Positions 9,626 through 34,088 of a stretch of DNA of 64,000 nt are shown piece by piece. The DNA comes from an uncultured Roseicyclus sp. (GTDB taxonomy: Bacteria; Pseudomonadota; Alphaproteobacteria; Rhodobacterales; Rhodobacteraceae): the NCBI GenBank assembly GCA_947491935.1, contig CANLLF010000002.1:868001-932000 (forward strand). Direction: 5' to 3'. The position numbers were made by a program, and so were the translations under genes. The notes under the pieces were generated by a model. That model ran no database searches and was not told where the DNA came from. It saw nothing but the letters and a program-made list of their open reading frames with translations. Positions within the stretch are counted from its first letter, which is position 1. Each line of letters starts with the position of its first letter.

Positions 9626-10040
9626 CCCTGGTTGGTTCCCTCTTCCCGCCAGAGGGACAAGCGTAGATTGCACCATTGCAAGTCCGTAGCTTGTGCACGC
9701 ATCTAGACCCTTGTTATTTGGAAAAGGGGCTTGCTATTCCAGCGTTGAGGGATTGAGCCGAAGGTTCTCGTTCCACCAATACCGTCCCTTTATCGCCGAC
9801 AACACAAGGCGCGCACGATCCCAATATCGCCGCCTTAGCAATGCTGTGAGCCGCACTAGGCCGACTTTCTTTACCCGCTGCAGCCTGGGCGTTTTCGCTG
9901 CGTGCGCATGCAACACAAAACCACAATGGCTGGATCGGGCTCTGAACCACCATCGGAGGAAGCGCCATAGTGTATGTTATGCTGCCTCCGTCAACGTCTG
10001 GTTGGCGATTTGGGAGGGCATGCGGATCGGAGGGTCGTTC
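9626..10040. other. Intergenic stretch, no gene supported
   Basis: This is 415 bases between the CPBP protease and the short recombinase. Open frames exist on both strands, but none has a ribosome-binding site, recognisable domain or coding-like composition. The last 60 bases must contain the recombinase promoter, and GGAGG lies six bases before its ATG. I see no clear repeats or transposon ends. Confidence 0.5.
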
Positions 10041-10673
10041 ATGGAAACACCAAACATACCAGCCATTCGAGCAATTCGCCCTTCTTGGAAAAAAGGCCGT
10101 AGTGTTGGTCAGAAGCGACCACTGAAACCAAAGCATGTCTGGGCGATCCGCGTACGACTAGATTTGGCCGAAAACGTTCGCGACTTGGCACTTTTCAGCA
10201 TGGCGATCGACAGTAGGCTTCGAAAATGTGATCCGTTTAAAATGAAAGTGGTCGATGTCATGGCTTTGGGCCAAATCAAAGAGTGCGCTTCCGTTCTGCA
10301 AAGCAAAACCCAGAAACCGGTTCGCTTCGAGATTTCGGATGGCACCAGGGTTTCGGTCGAGAAATGGATGGAAGATGAACTGGTTGCCGGAGCCGAGTAT
10401 CTTTGGCCGGACCAATCTCATGTGCGTCTGCACATCTCAACCCGCCAGTATTCCCGCATTGTCAGGAACTGGTTCAATTCTATCGGATTAGAGGCGAGCG
10501 CATACGGGACGCATTCGATGAGGGGCACGAAGGTAACACAGATCTACAAGAAAACGGGCAACTTGCTCGCGGTTCAGCCGTTGCAGGGACATACAAAGAT
10601 GGACAGCACTATGAGATACTTGGGCGTTGAACTTGAAGATGCCGTCGCGATTGCAGTGGCCATTGAATTCTAG
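10041..10673 (+). CDS. Short tyrosine recombinase/integrase (catalytic domain only)
   Basis: This 210-residue protein is a minimal tyrosine recombinase. Catalytic elements appear in order: Arg in the MAIDSRLRKCD segment, H-S-M-R (HxxR box) at about 172-175, G-H in QGHTKMDST, and Tyr in MRYLGVELED. There is no N-terminal core-binding (SAM-like) domain. I recall near-identical short recombinases on many alphaproteobacterial plasmids and islands. Relative to that remembered pattern there are a few substitutions near the active site (HSMRGT, VQPLQGH), which may indicate early decay. It sits directly upstream of the NTPase gene and may have helped to bring it here. Confidence 0.8.
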   Translation: METPNIPAIRAIRPSWKKGRSVGQKRPLKPKHVWAIRVRLDLAENVRDLALFSMAIDSRLRKCDPFKMKVVDVMALGQIKECASVLQSKTQKPVRFEISDGTRVSVEKWMEDELVAGAEYLWPDQSHVRLHISTRQYSRIVRNWFNSIGLEASAYGTHSMRGTKVTQIYKKTGNLLAVQPLQGHTKMDSTMRYLGVELEDAVAIAVAIEF

Positions 10674-10676
10674 TGT

Positions 10677-10704
10677 TTTGGGCCTTCTTCACGCACGGCC
10701 CAAA
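10677..10704. terminator. Hairpin after short recombinase gene
   Basis: The 8-bp perfect stem TTTGGGCC/GGCCCAAA with a 12-base loop starts three bases after the recombinase stop codon. No long T-run follows, so termination would be weak or factor-assisted. Transcript insulation is the likely role. Confidence 0.45.
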
Positions 10705-10871
10705 CCTGCCGTTCAACCTTAGGCTCCTAAATGGCAGCTTCTTAAGCCAGCGGAACACCAAATCCACTTAGCTCGGGGTGGCTAAGACAATGTGAGCAAG
10801 CCAAGCAGTTTGCTCTGCCGGAGGTTTGGGTCACTGTTTTCGCCCCGCATCGGTTGTGCTAGTTTGAATGC

Positions 10872-13800
10872 ATGAATAGACAATTTATTGGTCTAGCAAG
10901 CTGGATTGCTAGGAAACTTTACGCATTTTCCGCCTTCTTTGAAAAACTGGCTCGTTGCAGTGAGACGCAGTCGAAGTTCGTGAACCTCGCGCCTACAGCA
11001 GGGGCCGACAAAGCTGGTGTATACGCTCAAGCAATAAATTTTGCCATCAATGAAGATAGGGTGAAAAACATTGCGCTCACTGGTCCATACGGCTCAGGTA
11101 AGAGTAGCATCATACAATCTTTCCTGAACAAGCATCGACCTAGCGCTTTGCATATTTCGCTCGCTGCCTTCATTCCAGACGAAGAAGTGAATGGCAGAGA
11201 TGTGACCCGCCAAGAGATTGAAAGAAGCATCTTACAGCAAATGCTCTATGGTGCTGACGCGAACCGACTACCTTTGTCTCGGTTCAAGCGCATCCAGTCC
11301 CCTGGGATCTGGTCTGTCTTTACCTCCTTGTACTTAGTGCTTGGCATCGCGTCGCTGTGGTATGTTTTTCATCACCGTGAAGACGTTCTTAGTGGCACTT
11401 TCTTTGAACCGTTCGCGCTCACCAATGCAGTCAACTTGGGCATTTTTGCTGGTGCCTCAGTCTTTCTTTGGTCGGCCTTTCATCATTTCTATGTCGCCAG
11501 CTTTGGCATATCGCTTAAGAGCGTCTCCTTGAGGGATATTGAGATAAGGCCTGCGGCTGATGATCAAGAGTCGATCCTAAACCGTCATTTGGACGAGATA
11601 ATATACTTTTTTCAGTCTACGGACTACGATCTGGTGATTATTGAGGACTTGGACCGCTTTAACGACGCGGAAATATTCACTACGTTGCGCGAAATTAACG
11701 GTTTGGTGAACGAAAACGCAGGCGTTAGACGGACTGTAAGGTTTCTCTATGCGTTGCGTGATGACATGTTTGCAAACACCGATCGGACGAAATTCTTTGA
11801 GTTTATCATTCCCGTCATCCCGATAATTAACTCTTCAAACTCTATCGATATGGTCTTGGAACAAGGGAAACGGCTTGAACTAGATCGACGCCTAGAACGT
11901 CAATTCCTAAGGGAGGTGTCTAGGTATCTTAACGACCTTCGGCTGATTCAAAATATCTTCAATGAGTATGCTATATATGTCTCAAACCTGGAAACAGACG
12001 AAGAAAATCTGCTTAACGCGAACAAACTTCTAGCTGTTTTGATCTATAAGAATGTTCACCCGAGGGACTTTGAGAAGTTGCATCGTGATGACGGCAACTT
12101 CGCACAAATCCTCAATCATAGAGAAGCACTCATAAGATCCGGGGAGTCGGCTTACAGAGGTGAGATTGCTAAGCTAGAAGAAGACGTTAGGGTAGCAGAT
12201 CTTCAAATACCGTCCGATCTCAAAGAGCTTGGCCAGATTTATACAATGGCTCTGATCGAACAGCTTCCCGAAGGCATCACTGGCATCAGAGTCGACGGAC
12301 AAACTTTGGTCCCGCTTGCAGGACTTCCCGCGCACGATGCGCTCGATCAGTTGGTCGAGGCAACGCAAGTAAGCTTTCGCAATCAACGCAATCAAAACAT
12401 GCAGGTCAACATTTCCAAAACTCAAGACCGCGTTGATCCTGAGAAGTCCTTTCAGCAACGCAAAGCGGAGATTGCGAACAAGGCAACAGAAGCAAGGAAC
12501 GAAAAACTTCACGAAATCACTGAGCTCAAGTCAAAAATCGCAAAACTTCGCACAGCCAAACTCAACCAACTTTTGCGATTGAATTCCGAAGGAGCAGGGC
12601 AGCTCTTTGATGGGTTTAAAGAAAACGTCGAATTGGTAAGGTTTCTAGTTCTAGAAGGCCATCTTGATGACACTTACTATCAGTACACGTCGCTTTTTCA
12701 CTCGGGCCGCCTTTCGCCTAACGACAATAGGTACCTGATACAGATACGCGCATTTGTAACTCCAGAGCCGGATTTTCCAATCGACAACCCAGGAGAAGTG
12801 ATCGCAGCGATGCGAGACGAAGATTTCGGGCAGAGCTATGTGCTAAACGCCAAACTGGTCGATAAACTGATTAGTGATCCAGATCGCTATGCAGAACAAA
12901 TACACAAGCTTGTTGGATTGATTTCAGCTGAATTTGAAGACTGTGAGAACTTCTTTGATGTCTATTACTCTGGCGGCAGCCATGTACCAGAGTTGCTCAA
13001 CACGCTCGCGACCACTTGGAAAGGATTCGTGCCATCTGTTTTGGACAGCACCAAAAACACCATTCATGTTGCGCAACTAGTCGCCCAACTACCTCAAGGA
13101 GCTCTTGGGAGCCTCGCTACGGAGTTTCCGATACTATCTGAATTCGTTGCGGAGAATCTCCCAGCGGTTTTGACATATTTCCCAGAATTAGAAACACAGC
13201 GCCTTGAGGTTATCAAGATTGAAGTCAAGGAGCTTGTTGCCATCGAGGAGCACTCGGGAGTACTACGCGAAATGTGGGAGAAAGGACTATTCGAACTCAC
13301 CATTGCGAACATCGAATATGCATTCGCCTCTATCTTGAAGGAAGCCGACCTTCGGCCCCTGCTCACCCGAAACTTTACTACTATACGCTCTTTGACGGAT
13401 AAGATTCTACTAAATCGGGTCGAAAGAGACTTCGGGCAATACTTAAATGATATTCTTCTTGAGTTGCCGGAAAACTCTATGGAAGACGAACCTACCATTC
13501 TCGACGTCGTGCGAAGGGATAGCGTACCCCAAAGTACTCTTCGCAAATTTCTAGCAATGCAAGAAACCCGTCTGACGAGCTTAGAGCACGTGCCTCAGCA
13601 GTTGTATACAACTCTATTCCAAGAGAACGTTATCGAGCCTTCGTGGGAAAGCTGCCTCAGATTCATCGACTCTGATGGGTTTGAGCCGAACGTTCTGCTC
13701 GAATATCTCGACTTGGATACCGTTCGTCCGACTATCTTGGGGCATCCAATACCGGACGATGGGGAAGCAAAAAAACTGCGTCTTCTTCTCGTCAGGGCAA

Positions 13801-14483
13801 ACTCTTTGTCCGATGTTTCGTATTCGGAATATGTTCTTGCGCTTCCAAGGCCGTTTGAATTTGTCCCAGAAGAACTCGATCATTCCAAACTTAAAATCTT
13901 GATTGAGGCGCAAAAACTCGTTTTCACTCCAGAGCTCTTGGGGAACCTTTCGGATTACTACGATCTCCAAGTGCTATTCGTCGCAACAAACATCGAAAAA
14001 TACCTAGCTGCCTCAGACGACTTCTCCCTTGATGACGACTTTCGAGAGCAGCTTCTTGATGCTGCGATCGAGCAAGATGCCAAGTACGAGGTTCTCAAGC
14101 TTATGGACCTTAACGCGCTCGTTGGGCTGCCCGAGCGTTCAGCGCTCGTGGGTTCAATCATTGAGGGTGCAGACACTGATAGTTTCAATCTAAATGGTGT
14201 CGTCGTGCAGACCTTGATTGAGCATTCGAAACCGATATCCACGCGCATCTCGTTGCTCAATAAGTGTCACTCTCACCTTACGGCGGAAGAATTGCGTGCT
14301 GTCTTGGCCAAGCTGCCCAGGCCATATTCTGAAATTAAGACTGGCTACGGGATCCCACGGTTGGAGAACACTGCTGAGAACCGTGAGTTAGTTGAAATGC
14401 TTGATTCACGAGACATCATATCTTCGTGGAGCGAAGGTGGCTTTTTTACTAGCGACCTTAGAGTGAACCTATACCGCAAGTAG
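10872..14483 (+). CDS. YobI/KAP-type membrane P-loop NTPase, candidate defence protein
   Basis: The 1203-residue protein has Walker A GPYGSGKSS at 71-79 and Walker B DLVIIEDLDRF at 253-263. Two hydrophobic helices (about 146-167 and 183-206) are inserted between the two motifs. That topology is the hallmark of KAP P-loop NTPases, whose members include the phage-exclusion protein PifA of plasmid F. The overall N-terminal sequence resembles the YobI-like family. A coiled coil is likely near 520-580, followed by about 600 residues of helical, repeat-like C-terminus without a domain I know. Codon use appears more AT-rich than in neighbours, which supports recent acquisition. Defence function is an inference from family and island context. 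Confidence 0.7.
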   Translation: MNRQFIGLASWIARKLYAFSAFFEKLARCSETQSKFVNLAPTAGADKAGVYAQAINFAINEDRVKNIALTGPYGSGKSSIIQSFLNKHRPSALHISLAAFIPDEEVNGRDVTRQEIERSILQQMLYGADANRLPLSRFKRIQSPGIWSVFTSLYLVLGIASLWYVFHHREDVLSGTFFEPFALTNAVNLGIFAGASVFLWSAFHHFYVASFGISLKSVSLRDIEIRPAADDQESILNRHLDEIIYFFQSTDYDLVIIEDLDRFNDAEIFTTLREINGLVNENAGVRRTVRFLYALRDDMFANTDRTKFFEFIIPVIPIINSSNSIDMVLEQGKRLELDRRLERQFLREVSRYLNDLRLIQNIFNEYAIYVSNLETDEENLLNANKLLAVLIYKNVHPRDFEKLHRDDGNFAQILNHREALIRSGESAYRGEIAKLEEDVRVADLQIPSDLKELGQIYTMALIEQLPEGITGIRVDGQTLVPLAGLPAHDALDQLVEATQVSFRNQRNQNMQVNISKTQDRVDPEKSFQQRKAEIANKATEARNEKLHEITELKSKIAKLRTAKLNQLLRLNSEGAGQLFDGFKENVELVRFLVLEGHLDDTYYQYTSLFHSGRLSPNDNRYLIQIRAFVTPEPDFPIDNPGEVIAAMRDEDFGQSYVLNAKLVDKLISDPDRYAEQIHKLVGLISAEFEDCENFFDVYYSGGSHVPELLNTLATTWKGFVPSVLDSTKNTIHVAQLVAQLPQGALGSLATEFPILSEFVAENLPAVLTYFPELETQRLEVIKIEVKELVAIEEHSGVLREMWEKGLFELTIANIEYAFASILKEADLRPLLTRNFTTIRSLTDKILLNRVERDFGQYLNDILLELPENSMEDEPTILDVVRRDSVPQSTLRKFLAMQETRLTSLEHVPQQLYTTLFQENVIEPSWESCLRFIDSDGFEPNVLLEYLDLDTVRPTILGHPIPDDGEAKKLRLLLVRANSLSDVSYSEYVLALPRPFEFVPEELDHSKLKILIEAQKLVFTPELLGNLSDYYDLQVLFVATNIEKYLAASDDFSLDDDFREQLLDAAIEQDAKYEVLKLMDLNALVGLPERSALVGSIIEGADTDSFNLNGVVVQTLIEHSKPISTRISLLNKCHSHLTAEELRAVLAKLPRPYSEIKTGYGIPRLENTAENRELVEMLDSRDIISSWSEGGFFTSDLRVNLYRK

Positions 14484-15047: not shown

Positions 15048-17045
15048 CTAGTCCGGCATGCCCGCGTCGTCGCTCGGGTCCATCGCGGCCATCCGTGCCA
15101 CGGAGCGTCCACGTTCGAGAACTGTCTGGGCGGAAGCTGTTTTGTCTTGATTGTCATCATCCAAGCCTTTGAATTCCGCCTCGCGCGCACAGCGAACCGG
15201 CGAGTTCTCCTCCTTTTCAGGCAACTCATGTGCCCGATCGATGCCGCCTTCTTCGTCTTCGGCACTTGCTGCATCGGGATCATTCGCAGGGGAGGCTATC
15301 GGTGTTATTCCGCTCCAGTCGTCCATCGGTGATTTGAGTGGGGACTGCACAATGCCGTTCGGCGCTCCAATCACGCGCATTTTGAGTTGGGAATCGGCAT
15401 AGTACTTCACTTTTTGGGCGCGGATCGGCGGGGCGCCGGAGACCAACACAATCTCATCGTCGGATGGGAGTTGCATGATCTCGCCTTGGGTCAACAAAGC
15501 CCGCGCCGTCTCCTGCCGTGACACCATCAGATGCCCGAGCCACGGCGAAAGCCGATGGCCGGCATAGTTCTTCATGGCGCGTAACTCAGTCGTGGTTCCG
15601 AGGGCATCGGATAGACGCTTCGCGGTTCGCTCGTCATTTGTCGCAAAGGCGACGCGGACGTGGCAATTGTCGAGGATGGCGTTGTTTTGTCCGTAAGCCT
15701 TCTCGATCTGATTCAAGGATTGCGCGATCAGAAACGCCTTGAGACCGTAGCCCGCCATGAACGCCAGTTGCGTCTCAAAAAAGTCGAGGCGGCCCAAGGC
15801 CGGGAATTCGTCGAGCATGAACAAGAGCCGGTGTTGTTGCCTGGTTGTTTCGAGTTCTTCTGTCAGTCGGCGGCCGATCTGATTGAGGATCAGTCGAACC
15901 AATGGTTTGGTGCGCGAAATATCGGAGGGTGGCACCACAATGTATAGCGTCACAGGGCGCCCACCGGTGACAAGATCAGCAATCCGCCAATCGCAACGGG
16001 ATGTCACGGTTGCAACCACAGGGTCGCGGTAGAGACCGAGGAAGGACATCGCAGTCGAGAGAACGCCCGAACACTCGTTTGGGGACTTGTTCAAAAGCTC
16101 GCGGGCGGCCTGGGCTACAACTGGATGCGGCTGGTCTCCTAGATGCGGTGTGTAGAGCATTGCGTTGAGCGTCGCTGTAATGCTGCGCTTTGGATCAGAA
16201 AGAAACGTCGCGACGCCGGCCAATGTCTTGTCTTCGCCAGCATAGAGGACATGCAGGATTGCGCCGACCAGTAGGGAATGGCTGGTCTTCTCCCAGTGAC
16301 TGCGCCGCTCCAAGTTCCCATCGGGATCGACGAGAATGTCAGCAATGTTCTGCACATCCCGCACCTCCCGGGCGCCGCGCCGGACCTCGAGTAGGGGATT
16401 GTAGGCGGCGCTCGCCTCTTTTGTCGGATCGAAACGTAGCACGGGTCCGACCCGCGCGCGCCAGCCAGCGGTCAGCTGCCAGTTCTCACCCTTGATGTCA
16501 TGGACGATGGCAGACCCGGGCCACGTTAGCAGGCTTGGGATGACAAGCCCCACGCCCTTGCCGGAACGGGTCGGGGCGAAGCAGAGCACATGCTCGGGAC
16601 CGTCATGGCGGAGATAGCGCCGGTCCAGCCTACCGAGGACGACACCGTACTCGCCGAGCAATCCGGCTGCAGCCGCATCCGAGGCCGTCGCCCATCGAGC
16701 TGAGCCATAGGTGTTGACGTCGCTGGCCTCGCGGGCGCGCAGGACCGACAGGAGGATAGCGACCAGGATCGCAGCGATCCCACCGGCGCCCGCGATCGCC
16801 GCACCCTCGACGAAGATACGTGGCGCGTAGGCATCGTACCAATACCACCAGAGGAAGAAATCCCAAGGTCGGTAGACGGGCCAGCCGAAGAGATTGGTCA
16901 GCGGCGGACCGAGTTCTGCTTGATGTCCGAGACGGAAGGCGACCCATTGCGTCGAAGCCCAGACGAACGCGAGGACAACGAGGCTGACGATCACGAGTTG
17001 GCCCCAAAGGATTGCGGTGGTTGACGAGGTGTCGGTGCGGCGCAT
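15048..17045 (-). CDS. traG: TraG/VirD4-type conjugal coupling protein
   Basis: The 665-residue inner-membrane ATPase has N-terminal transmembrane helices at about 14-37 and 78-103. Walker A is APTRSGKG at 158-165, followed by the VirD4/TraG hallmark GSAIVHDIKGENW. Walker B is LLFMLDEFPALGRL. It should recruit the relaxase-DNA complex to a type IV secretion channel. AAGGAAC precedes the ATG. It lies 17 bases downstream of the relaxase gene and directly upstream of copG. No channel (trb) genes are in the window, so transfer would need a helper system. Confidence 0.93.
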   Translation of the reverse strand: MRRTDTSSTTAILWGQLVIVSLVVLAFVWASTQWVAFRLGHQAELGPPLTNLFGWPVYRPWDFFLWWYWYDAYAPRIFVEGAAIAGAGGIAAILVAILLSVLRAREASDVNTYGSARWATASDAAAAGLLGEYGVVLGRLDRRYLRHDGPEHVLCFAPTRSGKGVGLVIPSLLTWPGSAIVHDIKGENWQLTAGWRARVGPVLRFDPTKEASAAYNPLLEVRRGAREVRDVQNIADILVDPDGNLERRSHWEKTSHSLLVGAILHVLYAGEDKTLAGVATFLSDPKRSITATLNAMLYTPHLGDQPHPVVAQAARELLNKSPNECSGVLSTAMSFLGLYRDPVVATVTSRCDWRIADLVTGGRPVTLYIVVPPSDISRTKPLVRLILNQIGRRLTEELETTRQQHRLLFMLDEFPALGRLDFFETQLAFMAGYGLKAFLIAQSLNQIEKAYGQNNAILDNCHVRVAFATNDERTAKRLSDALGTTTELRAMKNYAGHRLSPWLGHLMVSRQETARALLTQGEIMQLPSDDEIVLVSGAPPIRAQKVKYYADSQLKMRVIGAPNGIVQSPLKSPMDDWSGITPIASPANDPDAASAEDEEGGIDRAHELPEKEENSPVRCAREAEFKGLDDDNQDKTASAQTVLERGRSVARMAAMDPSDDAGMPD

Positions 17046-17062
17046 AGGGGTGTTCCTTTCAA

Positions 17063-18811
17063 TCAGCGGCTGAGGCCGCGACGGCGACCGACGGTCCAGT
17101 CGATGCCGCCACCCGAGCGGACCATCCCGGAGACAGAGCGTCCGAGTTGTCGGTCCAATTGCGGTGTCCAGGGAACAAGCGAGAACCCCAGCCCGTCATC
17201 GATTATGGCGAAGCGGCCTGAAGCGAGACTAAGGCGTTGGCGGTAGGTCCCTTCGACAGCGTCGCCCTCGTGGTGGCGGTAGCGCATCAGGCCCGTCTGT
17301 GTTGCGAGCTTTGCTGCGTGCGCGTCCAGTTCGCGAACCCGCAGCGTGGAGAGGAGATCGCGGGAGAAGACCACCCGTTGGCCCTGCTTTTGCGCCAGCC
17401 CAATATCGACGAGGTGGTCTGCGCGCCGATCAAGAGCCGCCCGCACCTCGGCCCCGAAACCTGATCCACCGAGCGGCACGCGGTCACGAGCCAGCTGCAA
17501 TCGGTCGAGCCAGGTCGCGCCCTCGGCCCCGATCTGAGCGGACAAGTCCAGATCGGACCTGCCAACCAGTGCCAGCCGCGCTCGACCGCCCGCTTTTGGG
17601 GTCCACAGCCGCGTCTCGACGATGCCACCGGGGGCAGTATCGCTGGTCGCCGCGATTTCTGGAAACCGTAGGTGATGAACACGCCCGTCAACCCCGTCGA
17701 TGATTGCATAGGCCGTGCCGCGATGTTCGTCTTGCAGGCCCCGCTCGACGAGCCGCCCGAGAATTGGGCTCGTGGGCGTGCCTTCGATAGCGAATTCGAA
17801 ATCCGCGCGGTCGGGACCATTGGCCAGTGCCCGATGCATCGTCTTGATTATGTCGCCGCGCAGGCCAAGATCGCGAAGTGTATTCTCCACATCCGGTTTC
17901 AACTCCCAGACTGCGGGGAGAACGGGGGTCGCTAATCCCAACCGCTCCAGCTTTTGCACGCGCCCGATCATCAGGCGACGCAGCTCCCGGTCGCGGGGCT
18001 CTGGGGTGCCCCGGCGCAGATCGACAATGCCTGCATGGTCGTCGGCCAAGGCGCGCAGCCCGCGGTCAAGGTCGGTCCAGCGTTCGGTCGTAACTTGGCG
18101 TTCCAGGTCACTGGTGATCTCGCGTACGCTTCGGGGACCGAGTTCGAGTTGCACTAGATCTTCGGCGCGGGCGCGCAGACCGTGAGCGATGTAGTCTCGC
18201 GAGATCACCAGATCTCTACCGTCGTCTGCCTTGCCGCGCACGAGGATGTGGACATGCGGGTTGTCGGTGTTCCAGTGGTCAACTGCCATCCAATCGAGTT
18301 TCGTGCCTAGGTCACGCTCGGCGCGCGCCATCAGGTCGCGGGTGAAGGCGCGCAGGTCTTCGAGATGATGGGCATCCTCGGGCGACACGATAAAGCGGAA
18401 GTGGTGGCGATCTTCCTCCCAAGTCGCCGAGAGTGTACGACCTTCAGGCGTGTCGCAGTCGTGGCCAAAGAGATCGGCGCGTTGCCCGTCTTGGCCGACC
18501 CCGTCGCGCTGCAAATACCCGATGTGTTGGGTGAGCGGAGCCGAGCGGCGGCGCGCCCCACCGTGCCGAACCACGCGGGCATTGACGACGACGCGGCGCG
18601 AGGCACTGGTGAAGTTTGCGGTGGTACGAGCAAAACGTCCTCGCCCTCCCGTGGCGCCGCTTCTATGTGACCGGTTGAAGGTTTGACCTGAGTGCCCTGC
18701 CTTGCGGGCGGCGCGCATGACTTCGCCGACGAAACGGGTCGCCCTGCGAGACGAGGGGTCGCTGTTACGGATGCGGCCAGGGCGCGGTCGGAAGTTGTCG
18801 TCCCGGCTCAT
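17063..18811 (-). CDS. rlxS: Relaxase/mobilisation nuclease (RlxS/VirD2-like, DUF3363)
   Basis: The 582-residue protein nicks the transfer origin and stays bound to the strand during conjugation. The candidate catalytic tyrosine is Tyr99 in QHIGYLQRDG. The metal-binding histidines lie in DHWNTDNPHVHILVRGK (HVH at 186-188), preceded by HHFRFIVSPEDA. The C-terminal half matches the DUF3363 extension of this ICE-type relaxase. The start with AAGGA about ten bases upstream is preferred over a longer in-frame extension. It is similar in arrangement to rlxS of ICEMlSymR7A. The oriT is expected in the gap just upstream. Confidence 0.9.
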   Translation of the reverse strand: MSRDDNFRPRPGRIRNSDPSSRRATRFVGEVMRAARKAGHSGQTFNRSHRSGATGGRGRFARTTANFTSASRRVVVNARVVRHGGARRRSAPLTQHIGYLQRDGVGQDGQRADLFGHDCDTPEGRTLSATWEEDRHHFRFIVSPEDAHHLEDLRAFTRDLMARAERDLGTKLDWMAVDHWNTDNPHVHILVRGKADDGRDLVISRDYIAHGLRARAEDLVQLELGPRSVREITSDLERQVTTERWTDLDRGLRALADDHAGIVDLRRGTPEPRDRELRRLMIGRVQKLERLGLATPVLPAVWELKPDVENTLRDLGLRGDIIKTMHRALANGPDRADFEFAIEGTPTSPILGRLVERGLQDEHRGTAYAIIDGVDGRVHHLRFPEIAATSDTAPGGIVETRLWTPKAGGRARLALVGRSDLDLSAQIGAEGATWLDRLQLARDRVPLGGSGFGAEVRAALDRRADHLVDIGLAQKQGQRVVFSRDLLSTLRVRELDAHAAKLATQTGLMRYRHHEGDAVEGTYRQRLSLASGRFAIIDDGLGFSLVPWTPQLDRQLGRSVSGMVRSGGGIDWTVGRRRGLSR

Positions 18812-19058
18812 GGTGCTGATCCTTGCGAAAAGGCGCAGGCACCACAAAAACGATTATTGATCAGTTGCTTGTTGAAAAAGCCGGCACGGTTGGTGCTGAG
18901 ACGGCACGGTAAATTGGTCCAAGAAACAACCGCATGCTTGGCCCGCGTGTCAGCCCTTTTATCTTGCGATACTTTTGTTGTGATCCCGTGCTTCGGTCCA
19001 TTCAGGCACAACTCCCCGACAGCGCAAGCGAGGCTACGCCACAATGCGAACTCTGTGC
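18812..19058. other. Gap upstream of relaxase; candidate oriT region
   Basis: These 247 bases separate the relaxase start from the transglycosylase stop. They contain two direct copies of CGGCACGGT (18882-18890 and 18902-18910, 20-bp period) and a small imperfect hairpin at 18821-18839. In related elements oriT lies by the relaxase gene. I cannot identify a nick site with certainty. Confidence 0.3.
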
Positions 19059-19763
19059 TCATGGCATTTCTGGCTCGGTAGGAGAAACAAATATGCCGTG
19101 CGGACCCCCTTGGTCACTAGATTGGAGGATGCTTTCACCTGCGTCCATTCTCCCAATCGGAGTTGCGGAAAATAGAGGTGCCTCTCGCCAGTCGTGCGAT
19201 CGCAGCGGCAGTTCGTCAGCAAGAAGACCATCTTCCTGCACACCGATGATCGGCTCTAGAACAGCAAGGTAATTGTGTGTTTCGGCGGGCAGCGGGCGTC
19301 CGGAAATGAGGTAACCTTCGTATCGTGCCGGTCCAGCATTGTAGGCTGCAAGGAAGCCCGGCGATCCGAACCGGTCGTACATGGCGCGCAGATGGGCCGT
19401 TCCGGCGAGGATGTTTTCGCGGGGATCAAAAGGGTCATCTCCGAAACTGTAGGTTCGGCGCAACTCGGCCCAGGTGCCGGGCATAATCTGCATCAGGCCC
19501 ATGGCGCCTGCGCTGCTGACGGCGCTCGGATTGCCCGAGCTTTCCACCTTGATCACGGCGCTGATCCAGGAGGCTGGAATGCCAAACCTTTGCGAGGCTT
19601 CTGCGATGTGGGCGTCAAACGACTGCTGCTCGCCTGCTTCAAGCACGCGATCTTGTGCCACTGCCATCGTTGGTGCCACCGCAAACGGAGCGCAAATGGT
19701 TAGCAAGAGCGCGACGGTACGAGCAGAGTTCGTGACGTCAGATGAGGACGGAAAACCGGTCAT
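19059..19763 (-). CDS. Lytic transglycosylase of the transfer operon
   Basis: The 234-residue exported protein has a signal peptide (about 1-36, ending AVAQ). The Slt/GEWL catalytic domain shows Glu74 in AVIKVESSGNPSAVSSAGAM, then GLMQIMPGTW and a FLAAYNAGPARYEGY segment. It would open the peptidoglycan locally for conjugative transfer. Its start lies five bases after the traF stop, and it is followed by the relaxase gene. The C-terminal tail is short, and family members I recall run a little longer. Confidence 0.88.
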   Translation of the reverse strand: MTGFPSSSDVTNSARTVALLLTICAPFAVAPTMAVAQDRVLEAGEQQSFDAHIAEASQRFGIPASWISAVIKVESSGNPSAVSSAGAMGLMQIMPGTWAELRRTYSFGDDPFDPRENILAGTAHLRAMYDRFGSPGFLAAYNAGPARYEGYLISGRPLPAETHNYLAVLEPIIGVQEDGLLADELPLRSHDWREAPLFSATPIGRMDAGESILQSSDQGGPHGIFVSPTEPEMP

Positions 19764-19767
19764 GGGC

Positions 19768-20277
19768 TTATCGTCCTCGCGTCCAGAGCGGGACCGCTTG
19801 GCCGACAACGTGGCGAGCGTTGAACGTGCCGAAGTACCGCCCGTCGAGGCTGTCATCGACGTCTGCATTGAGGAGGAAAAACTCGTCCGGGCCGAGCGTG
19901 ATGCACCCCGTCCAACTCGGAAGGGGGCGTCCGTTGCGGTCCGTCTCCGGAGCAATTGCAACAGTGGTGGTGTTCACGGAGACAGTAAGACCGTTGCGGC
20001 AGACCGACATGCCGGAGGTCGCAGCAACACGTTTGAGAAGTAGGGTGTCCGCGCCCAGGTAGTCGCGCTCGATCATCCAATCAGACCAGTCTAAAGGCAG
20101 TTGAATGGCTGCGAGATCGCCAAGCCTTGGCGCAATCGACGGACGTAGGATATAGAGACCGACTGGTACGCTTTCGGACTGGTTCCAAACAAGAAGTGGA
20201 GTTCGGTCCATCTCCGATGCCGCGATCAGACCGACAGAAAGACCGGCCGCGATGAGGTGAGCAGGTGCGACGGTCAT
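19768..20277 (-). CDS. traF: TraF-type S26 conjugal transfer peptidase
   Basis: The 169-residue membrane-anchored serine protease has an N-terminal transmembrane helix. The S26/TraF catalytic serine lies in NQSESVPVGLY (Ser36) and the lysine in LLLKRVAA (Lys82). TraF matures conjugative pilin by cyclisation in IncP-type systems. Its ATG overlaps the DUF2840 stop as ATGA. The pilin gene trbC is absent from the window, so its usual substrate is missing here. Confidence 0.9.
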   Translation of the reverse strand: MTVAPAHLIAAGLSVGLIAASEMDRTPLLVWNQSESVPVGLYILRPSIAPRLGDLAAIQLPLDWSDWMIERDYLGADTLLLKRVAATSGMSVCRNGLTVSVNTTTVAIAPETDRNGRPLPSWTGCITLGPDEFFLLNADVDDSLDGRYFGTFNARHVVGQAVPLWTRGR

Positions 20278-20732
20278 GGAGCCACCGCGCGTCGCTTGAG
20301 CCAGGCGGCATGCCGGGCCGGTGTGTAAGGCCGGGGCTCGTATCCCGCAATTAAACGGTTGTGGACGTGCCGCCAGTGGTCTGGGCACACATCCTCCGGC
20401 GCGATGCCGTAGCTCTCCACGATGTCGACCGCTTGCAGGGCCGCCTCGACCTTCGGCCAGCCGGACAGTCGCAACAGGACGTCTCCACCTGGCGAGACAT
20501 AGGGATTGGTTGAACAGCGTTGGCCTGCCTTGACGGCGCGCAGAATGTTGAACCGGCTTTCTGCCGTGCCGTACTCATTCGACGACCAGCGCACGAGCGC
20601 GAAGGTTGCGCCCGGCTCGAAGGCCACCCGCTTGTCTGTTCGCGTTAGAACGATTTCCTCGGCAATGCGCCCAAAGCGGATCCAGCGCTCAACGCGCCCT
20701 TCAATCCACGTCAGATCGACGGTTGTCCGCAT
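20274..20732 (-). CDS. DUF2840 domain-containing ICE protein
   Basis: The 152-residue protein (starting MRTTVDLTWIEGRVERWIRF) matches the DUF2840 family, which nearly always precedes traF in this class of ICE. Its function is unknown. It starts only four bases after the stop of the RdfS-like gene, without a clear Shine-Dalgarno sequence. In related elements a replication initiator gene (repA) and parA usually stand between the two, so their absence suggests a clean deletion. Confidence 0.8.
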   Translation of the reverse strand: MRTTVDLTWIEGRVERWIRFGRIAEEIVLTRTDKRVAFEPGATFALVRWSSNEYGTAESRFNILRAVKAGQRCSTNPYVSPGGDVLLRLSGWPKVEAALQAVDIVESYGIAPEDVCPDHWRHVHNRLIAGYEPRPYTPARHAAWLKRRAVAP

Positions 20733-20736
20733 CGGC

Positions 20737-21018
20737 TCAGCGATCCCGACGCATATAGGCGGGCGAAATCGCCGCGTGGCGTTTGGCTGGAAGCACGCAG
20801 TCTCCGGTCTCTTCAGAGGTCGAGGTTTTCTCCCCCCGGGTGACCCAGGCCTGCAGATCATCGACCGCATAGACAACGCGCCCGCCGATCTTGGAGTAGC
20901 GTGGTCCTGTCCCGTAGGTGCGGTGTTTTTCCAGAGTGCGCCCAGAGAGGCCGAGCAAGCGTGCGGCTTCTGGTGTTCTGAGGTAACGGGGCGGCAGGCC
21001 TGAATTAGGATTGGGCAT
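20737..21018 (-). CDS. AlpA/MerR-like excision factor (RdfS-like)
   Basis: The 93-residue protein has a winged helix-turn-helix of the excisionase/AlpA type: YLRTPEAARLLGLSGRTLEK, then a basic wing region GPRYSKIGGRVVYAVDDLQAWV. It corresponds by position to rdfS of ICEMlSymR7A, the recombination directionality factor that drives excision and starts the transfer operon. It is first in the operon rdfS-DUF2840-traF-transglycosylase-rlxS-traG-copG. A GGAGAC ribosome-binding leader precedes it. Regulation by the FseA-like protein is expected from the R7A model. Confidence 0.8.
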   Translation of the reverse strand: MPNPNSGLPPRYLRTPEAARLLGLSGRTLEKHRTYGTGPRYSKIGGRVVYAVDDLQAWVTRGEKTSTSEETGDCVLPAKRHAAISPAYMRRDR

Positions 21019-21060: not shown

Positions 21061-21202
21061 AACTGTCGGAGGTCATCAAAGCGGAGAAGGGCCATTGAGG
21101 GGGATGACGAAGATGGCGCGAGAATTTCGTCACCCCGTCATTTGCCGTGAGGTAAGACTGTAAGGACGATCCTCATTGCTGTGATTTGGGATTTTGCAGG
21201 GC

Positions 21203-21739
21203 TCAAGACTGCCCGGCAGTCGGGCTTTGACCGAGAAGAAGGGAGCGGTATCCGCTGTCGATCAAATGCGTTCCATGGGCGGAAAGGCGGGCAATTCGCG
21301 CCTTGATCGAACTGGTTTTCCAAGGTTCTTGGTCGACCCGGGATGGCCCGAAGACATGTCGGGCAATGGTGCGGTAGCTGGCCTTTGACGCCCGCGCATC
21401 CAGCAATCGGCATGCCGACAGTATGCGCGCCCTTTGCTGCCGGGTCAGCGGATCTTTGGCAGGGCCGCATCCGACAAGGTGCTCCCGCACGCGCTGCGCA
21501 GTGGCGACACGTGTGCTCCATTGGTCATCTAGAGGAAGTAGAATGCCTACGACGCACTTCAGATTTTTCGCATCAAGAATGAGTGAGGGAACTGACTTGA
21601 GCTGGAGAACGACAGTATTCTCGTCGACATGCACAGCGTCCAAAGCAACGTGTTCGAGGTTGAAACTGGGGACAGTTTCGCCCGGAACTTTAGCAAGATA
21701 GCAGACTACCGCCGGCGCTACATTGGGCAGCCAAAACAC
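21203..21739 (-). CDS. DUF2285 ORF, downstream half of FseA-like activator (Msi171-like)
   Basis: This frame carries a C-terminal DUF2285 domain: RARILSACRLLDARASKASY followed by RTIARHVFGPSRVDQEPWKT and a GYRSLL end. Its only initiation codon is a GTG at 21739 without a convincing ribosome-binding site. The open frame, however, extends upstream to about 21775 (VDPDLEAPEAPVFWLPN) and continues the DUF6499 ORF perfectly after a +1 shift. The fused product would be 244 residues. In ICEMlSymR7A the equivalent ORFs msi172 and msi171 are fused by programmed +1 frameshifting into FseA, the activator of excision. Confidence 0.8.
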   Translation of the reverse strand: MFWLPNVAPAVVCYLAKVPGETVPSFNLEHVALDAVHVDENTVVLQLKSVPSLILDAKNLKCVVGILLPLDDQWSTRVATAQRVREHLVGCGPAKDPLTRQQRARILSACRLLDARASKASYRTIARHVFGPSRVDQEPWKTSSIKARIARLSAHGTHLIDSGYRSLLLGQSPTAGQS

Positions 21740-21767
21740 GGGTGCCTCAGGCGCCTCAAGGTCTGGA

Positions 21768-21938
21768 TCAACTGGGAAATCGCAACCCCCAGGATGCGGG
21801 AGACGAAAGGCCGTCTCGCATCAGAGGGTATTGCGCGCAGTATTTCGGATTTCGGCGCAGACATTCCCAAGCCAAGCCAGAGACATCGAGCGTTTCGATG
21901 TAGGCGTAGTCGGCTTCGTTCCGCCAGTCCCTGACCAT
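21768..21938 (-). CDS. DUF6499 ORF, upstream half of FseA-like activator (Msi172-like)
   Basis: The 56-residue ORF has the DUF6499 pattern (DWRNEADYAYIETLDVSGLAWECLRRNP) and ends WGLRFPS-stop. A purine-rich GGGGAAGG sits three bases before the ATG. The last codons are TTT CCC AGT TGA. Skipping the A after CCC restores WGLRFP-VDPDLEAPEAPV, the usual continuation of DUF6499-DUF2285 proteins. That position at a proline codon just before a stop is what a programmed +1 site looks like. A simple inactivating indel is the alternative. A LuxR-type box lies about 65 bases upstream. Confidence 0.8.
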   Translation of the reverse strand: MVRDWRNEADYAYIETLDVSGLAWECLRRNPKYCAQYPLMRDGLSSPASWGLRFPS

Positions 21939-22037: not shown

Positions 22038-22340
22038 TCACGACGTCGTTGTGCGTGCGAGGTCAAGATAGCCATGATCGCGCAGCCAGAGCGCCTGTTT
22101 GAGGGACTTTTCGAACAATGCATGGGACCCTTCTGGGTCCTTTTCGACGTCGAGGTGTAGGATGATTGCCGCAGCCTCCCGCCAATCGGCCCGGTCCCGG
22201 TCCGCGTCCAGAAGTCGGAGGTAGGTCTTCATCAACTCGCGGTCTGGCGGACTCGAGCCTGTCAGATCGGTGATACATTGGCGATCGATCAACAAGGTGA
22301 AGCCCTTCAAGAAAACCACTGCGCGGTGCCAAAGCAGCAA
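22038..22340 (-). CDS. QseM-like small DUF2285 protein (putative anti-activator)
   Basis: This protein of up to 100 residues has a helical core MKTYLRLLDADRDRADWREA and GYLDLA end, resembling the DUF2285 fold in the FseA-like protein downstream. In ICEMlSymR7A, QseM is a small DUF2285 protein that blocks both TraR and FseA and is divergent from qseC, exactly as here. The start is uncertain: the open frame begins at a TTG (22340), and an internal ATG exists at about residue 37. Function is inferred from synteny and weak similarity. Confidence 0.65.
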   Translation of the reverse strand: MLLWHRAVVFLKGFTLLIDRQCITDLTGSSPPDRELMKTYLRLLDADRDRADWREAAAIILHLDVEKDPEGSHALFEKSLKQALWLRDHGYLDLARTTTS

Positions 22341-22396: not shown

Positions 22397-22645
22397 ATGG
22401 AAAGCAGACGTATTCTTGCCCAAAACTTGAAGAAGTATCGGCTCGCGGGAGGGTTTTCTCAGGAGGATCTGGCGCATCGCGCCGAGCTTGACCGTACCTA
22501 TATCAGTGCGCTTGAGCGGTCATTGTATTCCGCCAGCCTAGATGTTCTCGACAAACTGGCGCTCGTGTTTGAGATCAAATCCAGCGATCTGTTGAGCGAA
22601 GAAGCACATGCGCCAGGGGCGGCGGCTGAAGATCAGGGCAACTAG
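22397..22645 (+). CDS. XRE-family regulator (QseC-like)
   Basis: The 82-residue protein is a single Cro/CI helix-turn-helix domain: LAQNLKKYRLAGGFSQEDLA followed by HRAELDRTYISALERSLYSA. It is the usual size for the QseC-type repressor of this ICE class. It is divergent from the qseM-like gene with a palindromic operator between them, suggesting a bistable switch that controls the anti-activator. Its stop overlaps the convergent stop of the 332-residue gene through a shared CTAG. Confidence 0.85.
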   Translation: MESRRILAQNLKKYRLAGGFSQEDLAHRAELDRTYISALERSLYSASLDVLDKLALVFEIKSSDLLSEEAHAPGAAAEDQGN

Positions 22646-23640: not shown

Positions 23641-24200
23641 GGCCGTTCTCCCGATATCGAGTAGAACGAAAAGCCATCACAGACCGTCGGCTCGACGGTG
23701 ACGGTGAGGCCTCCGAACAGGTCTTCCATGTCGCCCGCGATCGAAGCGTAACCATCGACTTCTTCGGCTAGCCAAGCAGGATAAGGGGGGGTCATCTGTG
23801 ACGATGTGAGAGCGGCGTCACCGGTGTAGAAGGCGAATGCCTCAAATCCGGACCCGTTCACCGCAATTCGGTCGCGCGGTACCAGCACAAGGCCCTGCAG
23901 ATTCCGCGCAGGATCTGACGGTTCCGCAGAGACCGCCAAGCCGCAGGATGGTGTCCATCCGTCATGCAAGTCAGGGGCCGAGAGAGAGATAGCGGGGCTT
24001 GCGAATTCGGGCCGGACGACTTCGCCCAGAAGTGCGTGGCTGTGAGCGCGATGTACAATCTCAGACAGAAGCCGGGTAAGATCACGGTGACGCTGGTCGG
24101 CGATCTGATCAGCCCGCAAGACCGATGACACATCCAAGGTGCCTACGGCGATGATGGCAGCCAAAACGACGGCCGTGGTTTTGGTGATTGCTCTGGTCAT
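23637..24200 (-). CDS. Hypothetical single-pass membrane or exported protein
   Basis: The 187-residue protein has an N-terminal hydrophobic helix (about 7-28) acting as signal or anchor, followed by a polar domain with two cysteines (in TPSCGLAV and EPTVCDGF) that could form a disulfide if exported. I recognise no family. It overlaps luxR upstream and the 332-residue gene downstream by four bases each (ATGA in both cases), which indicates strict co-translation. It is perhaps a pilin-like or partner protein, but that is a guess from size and topology. Confidence 0.6.
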   Translation of the reverse strand: MTRAITKTTAVVLAAIIAVGTLDVSSVLRADQIADQRHRDLTRLLSEIVHRAHSHALLGEVVRPEFASPAISLSAPDLHDGWTPSCGLAVSAEPSDPARNLQGLVLVPRDRIAVNGSGFEAFAFYTGDAALTSSQMTPPYPAWLAEEVDGYASIAGDMEDLFGGLTVTVEPTVCDGFSFYSISGERP

Positions 24201-24952
24201 CGGTAAATCTGCCCCTGCAATGTCGCGCGCATGACGGCCTGAAGGGTGTTCGTCACCCTCATACGCTCGCGGGCTTCTCTCATATGTTTTACGATAGTGC
24301 TGCGATGCAGCCCCATTATTTCCCCGATGTCGTCGATGGTCTTTCCATCACCGACCCAGGCCAGCACTTCGCGCTGCCGTGAGGTCAGTTCTTCACCCTC
24401 GGGAACTTGCGGCAGCAACCTGGTGGACAGATCAAAAGCGCTCAGAACGCAAAGCAGCAGCTTTCGGCGCTCCGCCCAGACTTTGTCGACGTCCTTTTGG
24501 CTCAGGATTTCATCTGCACTCAACCCGAAGCCGGTGATCAGGCCCGAGCCATGGTTCCTGAGGCTGATCGTGTATCCATTGATGAGACCCAGATCGAGGC
24601 AGCGTTCATGGATCGCGATCTGACGTGCCGAAAGCTGTCCATCGGCCTTCAAGCGCCTGGTCAGATCCCAGCTGACCGCACCTTGGCTGTCGATGGCCCA
24701 TTGCGTATTCACGTCTGCCGTGAACGCCGCGCCATCGACAAAGAAATTGTCGAACTCCGCGCCGTAGCTCGACTTTACAATGGTATCGCGTGGGGACCGT
24801 GCCTTGTTCGCTTGGCGGCGTTGCGACGCTGCGTAGAAGACGCGTGTAAATCCTGCTTTGCTTAGATCGCGATGAAGACGATCCCACGGCGCAGGAGAAT
24901 CCTGCGTAGTAAGATAGGGCTCAATATGATCAATCGGAGCAAAAAGCTGCAT
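24197..24952 (-). CDS. LuxR-family regulator with autoinducer-binding-type domain (TraR-like role)
   Basis: The 251-residue protein has an N-terminal half like the autoinducer-binding domain of LuxR proteins and a C-terminal LuxR helix-turn-helix (about 188-245: LTSRQREVLAWVGDGKTIDD, then IGEIMGLHRSTIVKHMREA). The conserved Asp-Pro of the classic ligand pocket is not obvious near SWDLTRR or TADVNTQW, so the ligand may differ from standard acyl-homoserine lactones. No luxI is in the window, so it is a solo receptor in this view. It heads an operon with two unknown genes. Its likely targets are the palindrome at 22003 and its own promoter. Confidence 0.85.
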   Translation of the reverse strand: MQLFAPIDHIEPYLTTQDSPAPWDRLHRDLSKAGFTRVFYAASQRRQANKARSPRDTIVKSSYGAEFDNFFVDGAAFTADVNTQWAIDSQGAVSWDLTRRLKADGQLSARQIAIHERCLDLGLINGYTISLRNHGSGLITGFGLSADEILSQKDVDKVWAERRKLLLCVLSAFDLSTRLLPQVPEGEELTSRQREVLAWVGDGKTIDDIGEIMGLHRSTIVKHMREARERMRVTNTLQAVMRATLQGQIYR

Positions 24953-32587: not shown

Positions 32588-32833
32588 ATGGAGCAGAAAA
32601 CCGCTTATGGCCGCTATTGCCAGCCACCGGAACGGCGCGGCCTTTCCAGAGCGGAAGCGGCTGAGTACATTGGCGTAGGTGTATCGAAGTTCGATACCAT
32701 GGTCGCAGACGGGCGCATGCCAGAGCCCAAGCGTATTGATGGACGCCGCGTCTGGGACCGTCGTCATATTGATCGTGCTTTCGACCTTCTTGAAGGCGGT
32801 TGTAAGGTGGAGAACAACCCTTGGGAATTGTGA
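32588..32833 (+). CDS. AlpA-like helix-turn-helix protein (excisionase-type)
   Basis: The 81-residue protein has a MerR/AlpA-type helix-turn-helix: RGLSRAEAAEYIGVGVSKFD then MVADGRMPEPKRIDGRRVWD and RRHIDRAFDLL. AAGGAAC sits directly before the ATG. It is 13 bases upstream of the integrase gene and almost certainly co-transcribed with it. It could be a second directionality factor or a regulator of the integrase, beside the RdfS-like protein at 20737. Confidence 0.85.
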   Translation: MEQKTAYGRYCQPPERRGLSRAEAAEYIGVGVSKFDTMVADGRMPEPKRIDGRRVWDRRHIDRAFDLLEGGCKVENNPWEL

Positions 32834-32846
32834 AGGCCATGCCCGA

Positions 32847-34070
32847 ATGAAAATGCGCCGGATGAAATATGTGGTCGAAGACACCGACCGTCACGGTAAC
32901 GTTCGAATCTACTATCGGCGCAAGGGCAATCCCAAGATCCGGTTGCGCGGCCCGGTCGGTTCGCCTCAATTCCTGACCGACTACCAACAAGCGGCGACGG
33001 ATAAGGCAAGCAAACCGAGGACGAATAATGGATCAGGAGCAAAGGTGGGGCAGCCCGGTACGCTCCGATGGCTTTGTACGCAGTACTTCAAGTCGCCTAT
33101 GTATCGGCAACTCGACCCCTCAACACGTCGATCCCGACGTTCGATCCTCGAACGGTTCTGCCACAATCATTGCGATGGCGAAAAGCCTTATGCCAAGCTC
33201 TTGCCGAGGCATCTGCGTATGCGTCGCGACGAGATGCTAAACACGCCCTCTGCGGCCAATACGATGATCAAGACGATGCGTCAGCTTTTCCGGTTTGCAG
33301 TTCGCTACGATCTCCATGACAACAATCCAGCAGCACAGGTCGAGTACCTGAATACAAACCCGCAAGGGTATCATTCCTGGAGCCTTGAAGAGATTGAGGC
33401 CTTCGAGCGGATTCACCCTTTCGGTAGCATGGCGAGGCTTGCCCTGGCTTTGGCACTCTATACCGGGCAGCGCCGTTCTGACCTTGTCCGTTTCGGTTGG
33501 AACCATCTGCGCGAAGATGATGCCGGTGTTCTTTGGTTGGTCTTCATCCAGCAGAAAGGACGGAACAACCATCCAATCAGCCTTGAAATTCCAATCATCC
33601 CTGAGCTCCAACGGCATCTCAACACTGAACGGGTCGGAGAAACGACCTTCCTAGTGAACGGCTACGGCAAGTCGTTCACGGCGGCAGGTTTCGGCAACCG
33701 TTTCCGCAAGTGGTGTGACGAAGCAGGGCTCAAAAACTGTTCTGTCCACGGGTTGAGAAAAGCAGCTGCCGCGCGACTGGCTGAACTTGGATGCAGCGAA
33801 TTCGAAATTATGGCCATAACCGGCCACCAGACATCGAAAGAAGTAACGCGCTACACTAAGGGTGCGTCGCAAAAACTGCGGGCCGCTAGCGCGTTTCAAA
33901 AGCTCACACAGCCTGCTCAAAACGCAAAAAGTGTCCCACTTTTTGCCCCGCACCATGGCGGTGGGACACTTTCGCGTCGCAAGTCAATGAAATCGGGTAT
34001 TATTTTAGAGAAGTGGCAGCCCGTAGGGGAATCGAACCCCTCTTTCCAGGTTGAAAACCTGGCGTCCTAA
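32847..34070 (+). CDS. int: Tyrosine-type site-specific integrase of the element
   Basis: The 407-residue protein has a core-binding region (about 60-170) and a catalytic domain with Arg in LALYTGQRRSDL, HGLRK (HxxR), GHQTSKE, and the nucleophile Tyr in VTRYTKGA. I prefer the ATG at 32847 over an in-frame extension that overlaps the preceding gene. The frame continues through two palindromic arms and ends inside the tRNA-Glu gene: the last 18 residues (starting WQPVGESNP) are antisense tRNA. The C-terminus would therefore change when the element excises. Confidence 0.92.
   Translation: MKMRRMKYVVEDTDRHGNVRIYYRRKGNPKIRLRGPVGSPQFLTDYQQAATDKASKPRTNNGSGAKVGQPGTLRWLCTQYFKSPMYRQLDPSTRRSRRSILERFCHNHCDGEKPYAKLLPRHLRMRRDEMLNTPSAANTMIKTMRQLFRFAVRYDLHDNNPAAQVEYLNTNPQGYHSWSLEEIEAFERIHPFGSMARLALALALYTGQRRSDLVRFGWNHLREDDAGVLWLVFIQQKGRNNHPISLEIPIIPELQRHLNTERVGETTFLVNGYGKSFTAAGFGNRFRKWCDEAGLKNCSVHGLRKAAAARLAELGCSEFEIMAITGHQTSKEVTRYTKGASQKLRAASAFQKLTQPAQNAKSVPLFAPHHGGGTLSRRKSMKSGIILEKWQPVGESNPSFQVENLAS
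33925..33972. repeat. Palindromic arms near attR
   Basis: Two overlapping perfect dyads are present: CAAAAAGTG-N3-CACTTTTTG (33925-33945) and AAAGTGTCCCAC (33928-33939) paired with GTGGGACACTTT (33961-33972). They lie 42-90 bases inside the element end within the integrase 3' part. They may be arm-type integrase or excisionase sites, or a hairpin terminator of int. Confidence 0.6.
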
Positions 34071-34088
34071 CCGATAGACGAACGGGCC
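34014..34088 (-). tRNA. tRNA-Glu (anticodon TTC), integration site
   Basis: The minus strand folds as a complete tRNA with encoded CCA. The acceptor is GGCCCGT/ACGGGCT (one G-U pair at 1-72). The anticodon arm is CCAGG-TTTTCAA-CCTGG with anticodon TTC. The T arm is AGGGG-TTCGATT-CCCCT. The element joins directly at its 3' end, so integration keeps the tRNA intact. It is 70 bases downstream of recJ on the same strand. Confidence 0.95.

Follow-up and report, generated by a model that had tools for sequence, protein, structure and literature searches.

The two halves of the fseA-like gene in the window, which is the whole 64-kb stretch of DNA analyzed here, are very probably joined by a programmed +1 frameshift on a UUU codon. 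The resulting FseA-type activator would act through a candidate DNA box and an rdfS-like switch gene to bring about excision of the surrounding element (Table 1). The sequence-based observations are the frame offset and its conservation, a codon signal, an inverted repeat, selection acting on each of the two halves and the predicted fold of the product. Together they extend to an element of the Rhodobacteraceae a translational brake already published for conjugative elements, give evolutionary grounds for taking both halves to be in use and point to UUU, not CCC, as the slip codon.

Table 1. Features of the fseA locus and its surroundings (window coordinates)
Feature	Position	Strand	Remarks
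fseA 5' part, msi172-like, DUF6499/PF20109	21768-21938	-	ATG 21938; 0-frame stop TGA 21770-21768; AWECLRRN and WGL motifs
Frameshift signal TGGGGGTTGCGATTTCCC	21774-21791	-	slip codon TTT 21779-21777, then C 21776
fseA 3' part, msi171-like, DUF2285/PF10074, +1 frame	21203-21775	-	entry after UUUC; stop included
Candidate FseA box TGACGA-N16-TCGTCA	21105-21132		86 bases ahead of the rdfS-like ATG 21018
rdfS-like HTH_17 gene, probable FseA target	20737-21018	-	PF12728 1.2e-8; ahead of the transfer genes
qseM-like lone DUF2285 gene, antiactivator candidate	22038-22340	-	PF10074 E 2.1e-4; custom profile E 3.8e-5
qseC-like XRE-type HTH gene	22397-22645	+	PF01381 5.7e-12; divergent from the qseM-like gene
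Transfer genes: S26 peptidase (TraF-like), SLT, DUF3363 (RlxS-like), TraG	15048-20388	-	downstream of fseA
Tyrosine integrase gene overlapping tRNA-Glu gene	32679-34088		probable right end of element
LuxR-type gene with autoinducer domain	24197-24952		

The DUF6499 frame extends from 22025 to 21768 on the minus strand, with ATG 21938 as its best start and a match to PF20109 (3e-17, Pfam). The DUF2285 ORF occupies 21739-21203 of the same strand, lies in +1 relative to DUF6499 and matches PF10074 (9.3e-26, Pfam). The end of the DUF6499 frame reads CGA followed by TTT (21779-21777), CCC (21776-21774), AGT (21773-21771) and TGA (21770-21768). The last four codons are those that the initial annotation had given, and the +1 step leads seamlessly into DUF2285. 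When TTTC is taken as a single step, an unbroken frame opens from ATG 21938, beginning WGLRFPVDPDLEAPEAP and crossing the junction as LRFPVDPDLEAPEAPVFW; its 244 residues are the length the annotation had given. The 0-frame TGA is then part of GTT GAT (Val-Asp) in the other frame. The window thus carries the hallmarks of the FseA family: an N-terminal DUF6499 domain with an AWEFLRRN-like motif (here AWECLRRN), a C-terminal DUF2285 domain and a +1 junction, and by these sequence features its copy belongs to the published, widespread FseA class (PMC10359603).

Searches for PF20109 gave matches in 17 of 289 genomes at the level of the class, in 22 of 295 at that of the family and in 43 of 398 at that of the phylum; for the DUF2285 half the figures were 5 of 13 genomes in the genus and 29 of 394 in the family (counts that include the window's own genome, with only the best candidates per genome scored). 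A single-protein search of genome contigs returned one locus, and a scan of viral contigs gave no match. The survey set comprised 166 loci, including 14 plasmid regions, in which a profile search gave 163 DUF6499 matches, or 127 distinct places once repeats were removed. The DUF2285 partner lay in +1 at 88 of these 127 places, nominally in the same frame at 24 and in the third frame at two (L046 and L053), and no partner was found at 13. The fused set used below has 22 rows, leaving out L032 (same frame, with an intervening stop) and L016 (no WG). Among irregular rows, L076 is a mixed locus with a wrong fused anchor, and the anchors of L125 and L127 are also not the usual WG. Because 88 of the 127 places are in +1 and five congeners, the window included, share one 733-nt layout, the offset goes beyond chance; the earlier proposal of a conserved, FseA-like programmed +1 frameshift is strongly supported by this comparison together with the selection data below. 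Not every split copy need work, as suggested by the stop in the joined frame of L050 and by the shortened DUF2285 match of L044, which ends at profile position 141 of 191. Split fseA genes are easily missed: Agrobacterium plasmid pAtK224b carries an intact split copy (L153:2808-3519) for which no gene is listed, the gene table used being incomplete.

The codon shared by the split rows is TTT, present in 87 of 88 and followed by C in 84 and by T in four, after manual correction of the slip position in L011 and L020, which was shifted one codon on, from TTC to TTT. The remaining row, L061, has TGT; L013 has one additional codon and L164 reads TTT TTT. When each 50%-identity cluster is represented by a single row, TTT stands in 32 of 32 and the following C in 30 of 32. 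The initial annotation had placed the slip at the proline codon CCC, with the A skipped, and in the window a slip on CCC or on UUU would give an identical peptide. CCC does follow TTT in 48 of the 88 rows, but the next 0-frame codon is CGC in 30 and one of seven others in the remaining 10 (L011 and L020 being counted one codon early), among them CCT, CGT, TCC, TGT, TGC and CAC. A tRNA on CGC would presumably not re-pair after a forward slip. Given the near-invariance of UUU (87 of 88 rows) against the mere 48 rows with CCC, the likely event, judged from conservation, is the movement of tRNA-Phe from UUU to UUC, one codon ahead of CCC, and we consider a slip on CCC itself very unlikely. The 2015 PNAS paper on FseA reportedly explained the shift by a move of tRNA-Phe off UUU and onto UUC, with which the present codon data agree. 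The base after CCC in the window and its four congeners is A, T, G, G and G, and because these changes are silent as CCN but give Ser, Cys or Gly in the 0 frame, the +1 frame is the constrained one. The nearby stop, named with the site in the initial annotation, is incidental: TGA is the third codon past the slip codon in 18 of the 88 rows, no row has a stop directly after the slip codon (CCC stands there in the window), and because 0-frame reading continues for 2 to 236 codons, the TGA is no part of the signal.

Both fseA halves are under purifying selection, to judge from substitution patterns. The window and its four congeners have the same offset and no indels within the shared layout, with 54 and 190 codons in the two parts of each, and dN/dS among them ranges from 0.100 to 0.193 in the first part and from 0.165 to 0.359 in the second. 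Before the site, variable positions by 0-frame phase number 7/54, 6/54 and 18/54 (13, 11 and 33%), and after it 113/191, 50/190 and 39/190 (59, 26 and 21%), so that the phase switches at the site. Over the second part the 0 frame contains five to seven stops in the five congeners, two in L037 and five in L038, and the +1 frame contains none in any of these seven rows. The comparison across relatives that the annotation had proposed as a check came out in its favor as regards purifying selection and a conserved +1 site, with TTT and not CCC as the conserved codon. A random indel that killed the activator, the alternative raised at the time, would be in keeping with the 22 analyzed relatives that are single-frame and with the stop in L050, which show that decay occurs in the family. 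It is contradicted by the offset shared by 5/5 congeners and 16/16 rows of the window's clade, by the selection on both halves and by the family survey, and we regard it as scarcely credible. Uninterrupted close homologs were looked for and all 16 rows of the clade proved split; stops in the DUF2285 frame, also looked for, occurred in 1 of 88 split rows (L050).

The two halves might instead be separate proteins that pair with each other, with DUF2285 started on its own, for example at GTG 21739. This codon lies at position 13 past the junction and, by eye, has a GAGG just before it; moreover, 47 of the 88 split rows, including three congeners (L079, L080 and L081), have a possible +1-frame start codon upstream of the slip, and in these rows separate starting may occur as far as the sequence goes. 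In the window, however, the +1 frame has no ATG, GTG or TTG between a stop 15 codons upstream and codon 13 past the junction, and the VDP of this stretch without a start codon is kept. The stretch is under constraint, with a pN/pS of 0.21 over the first 30 codons past the junction. The fourth residue after UUUN is P in 80 of 88 rows, and in 37 of 88 that P precedes any in-frame ATG, GTG or TTG. The GTG is lost in L079, L080 and L081, whose first starts lie 29, 44 and 37 codons past the junction, and an invariant TTT would be needless if the halves were made separately. We therefore find independent starting very unlikely.

Upstream of the slip codon, the split rows use codons that are uncommon in the rest of the same genes: GGG for Gly in 60 of 85 (15% elsewhere), TTG or TTA for Leu in 58 of 79 (13%), CGA for Arg in 51 of 57 (10%) and, at the slip position, TTT for Phe in 86 of 86 (28.5%). 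The corresponding background in the window's own genome, taken from 125 long ORFs in 12 stretches of 20 kb, is 22% for GGG, 12.5% for TTG plus TTA, 7.3% for CGA and 24.9% for TTT. Fused relatives have GGG at the same site in 4 of 19, TTG or TTA in 6 of 17 and CGA in 0 of 10, and the pattern is kept in the clustered split set (GGG in 20 of 31, CGA in 14 of 16 Arg codons). As these rows are related by descent, the Fisher values for the enrichment should not be read as probabilities for independent events. The codon-level case for a UGGGG(G)-UUR-CGA-UUU-C signal is an addition of the present analysis, as are the split/fused changes and the suggestive QseM link described below. The run of five G in the site could also suggest that the frames are joined by slippage of RNA polymerase rather than of the ribosome. 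The runs are short, however, with only four G in rows that have GGC or GGT, and polymerase slippage leaves the near-invariant UUU-C unexplained at the level of sequence, making it most improbable.

RNA structure downstream of the site is unremarkable across the 88 loci, with a mean z of -0.15 compared with -0.09 to -0.32 in control stretches, and the motif showed no excess of pairing with the sequence upstream of it (mean z 0.04). In the window itself, a strong hairpin is predicted directly 5' of the slip site (21774-21850, minus strand; z -3.49). Upstream structure with z under -2 is present in 27% of the 88 loci versus 2-5% in other stretches, but as a family-wide feature it was not upheld when set against a synonymous recoding control (mean z -0.41 versus -0.09 to -0.29).

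A model of the fused window protein, built from 44 rows, has a pLDDT of 89 and a pTM of 0.87. In a Foldseek search its sole PDB match at E<=0.001 was RovC (6xz5; E 1.3e-6, 237 columns, 20% identity), the next best match having an E of 0.75, and the joined protein is thus predicted to have a RovC-like fold. Because the congeners keep the offset without indels, both halves are under selection, the phase switches at the site and the fold is confident, the gene is not dead.

A quick tree of 109 rows (87 split and 22 fused, leaving out L050 with its one stop; some rows are long) requires 10 changes between the split and fused states, at least five of them on supported (starred) branches. This indicates that split and fused activators have been interchanged several times, so that a comparison between alleles naturally in the two states offers a way to gauge what the frameshift is worth. 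One possible case is in the same family, where L102 (1441-1500) has its fseA halves in one frame while sitting among split relatives, with one base fewer directly before the slip codon. L102 is either a fusion that arose naturally or an artifact of sequencing.

A lone DUF2285 gene lies within 1.2 kb upstream of fseA in 56 of 76 split rows versus 0 of 20 fused rows (56 of 77 split with L050 included). Counted on either side, the figures are 55 of 75 and 0 of 20, and within the class, upstream, 56 of 76 and 0 of 11. Of five independent pairs on the tree, only about two carry information and none points the other way (p 0.5), and the QseM-like profile was trained mostly on split rows. The tie between the split form and a neighboring QseM-like gene is thus no more than suggestive. 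In the window, the qseM-like gene scores 22.3 bits against PF10074, below the Pfam curated cut-off of 26.4.

The order downstream of the window's fseA is HTH_17 (rdfS-like), DUF2840, S26 peptidase, SLT, DUF3363 and TraG. The candidate box between fseA and the rdfS-like gene is the only match to its pattern in 64 kb, with 0.00 expected. The published FseA box is a pair of inverted hexamers with a spacing of 15 or 16 bp, located before rdfS (PMC10359603). The window's inverted repeat fits that arrangement, compared by layout rather than by the R7A hexamer sequence. By alignment, the box is exact or nearly so in 12 of 16 clade rows, which are those with the same upstream stretch after fseA; the remaining four (L085, L153, L086 and L035) have other sequence there. 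The core of the box stands at 4459-4486 in L153, where an HTH gene begins at 4574 after a gap of 87 bases. Of the 87 split loci scanned, only 7 carry the core TGACG-N16..18-CGTCA in the 600 nt that follow fseA, versus 14 of 4,350 block-shuffled stretches. All seven belong to the window's clade, and no scanned locus outside the clade has an exact core there.

For the tRNA-Glu site at the probable right end, a search for an att direct repeat gave no exact repeat of at least 13 bases across the window and the adjoining 100 kb on its left, and none of at least 14 within the window. TraG has one match in the genome, inside the window. The genome's only TrbI match lies about 61 kb left of the window (G000:C2:806401-815657; L181 and L182), about 67 kb from TraG, adjoined by TrbE- and TrbB-like genes and flanked by efflux, hydrolase and other genes. 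Elsewhere in the window (9693-14480), a second tyrosine integrase stands beside a large gene for a YobI-like P-loop ATPase, possibly a separate island or defence gene.

From these observations we infer that the frameshift occurs and at what kind of rate, that UUU is the slip codon, that the product binds DNA and that it affects excision. Most ribosomes would stay in the 0 frame and end with a product that has DUF6499 alone. In a minority, the peptidyl-tRNA-Phe would move +1 from UUU to UUC, and these ribosomes would enter the DUF2285 frame and complete the 244-residue FseA. The slip is likely promoted by a linear, SD-like UGGGGG followed by UUG CGA, there being no A-site stop and no conserved RNA structure. 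FseA would then bind the repeat at 21105-21132 and turn on the rdfS, traF and relaxase genes, leading to excision and transfer. The frameshift would be one brake on this switch and the adjoining QseM-like protein probably another. A more far-reaching reading seems doubtful to us. In it the family would have a bacterial +1 signal of its own, UGGGG(G)-UUR-CGA-UUU-C, that works with no stop in the A site and no RNA structure, and in which weak I-A pairing of the E-site CGA and the SD-like pull let tRNA-Phe pass from UUU to UUC. Together with the QseM antiactivator, the frameshift would form a co-inherited two-brake module, and the abundant 0-frame DUF6499 product may be a QseM decoy that sets the threshold for excision.

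The closest known system is FseA of ICEMlSymR7A (msi172-msi171), which like the window has DUF6499 followed by DUF2285, a +1 frameshift, a WGL motif with UGGGGG and, compared by description, RdfS-like and QseM/QseC-like genes near fseA. The window differs in its 0-frame stop at the third codon past the slip and in its own candidate box; a LuxR-type gene lies near its fseA. Its downstream gene order resembles the rdfS-traF-msi107-rlxS order of Mesorhizobium, for which qseM and qseC are also described. PMC10359603 reports FseA-like genes and the +1 site throughout three classes, with 4,709 homologs of which about 61% are split, and describes UGGGGG as ribosome-binding-site-like. The split pairs described there have the same domain order and +1 site, and nothing found here sets the window's copy apart from the class. 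The other literature covered is PMC5009743, PMC5882170, PMC9601964, PMC11963761 and PMC8627217, and the accessible parts of the surveyed work on FseA-type frameshifting hold no mention of the window's locus. The discussion of PMC9601964 calls the frameshift absent in Azorhizobium, each half having its own start and stop; by the split-row data here, own starts and stops are no argument against a frameshift.

The predicted fold of the whole fused protein is like that of Yersinia RovC, which is reported to activate a type VI secretion system. Among other +1 sites, plant amalgavirus UUU_CGN and influenza A UCC_UUU_CGU also have UUU followed by C, and the UUU CGC of 30 of the 88 split rows compares with the amalgavirus sites, although these viral signals act on eukaryotic ribosomes and in unrelated genes. 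In bacteria, the prfB gene of E. coli (RF2) uses a +1 frameshift with an upstream SD-like sequence and a stop in the A site. The window shares with prfB the +1 shift and the upstream SD-like sequence, but it lacks the A-site stop, and six bases, instead of about three, separate the end of its SD-like G run from the slip codon.
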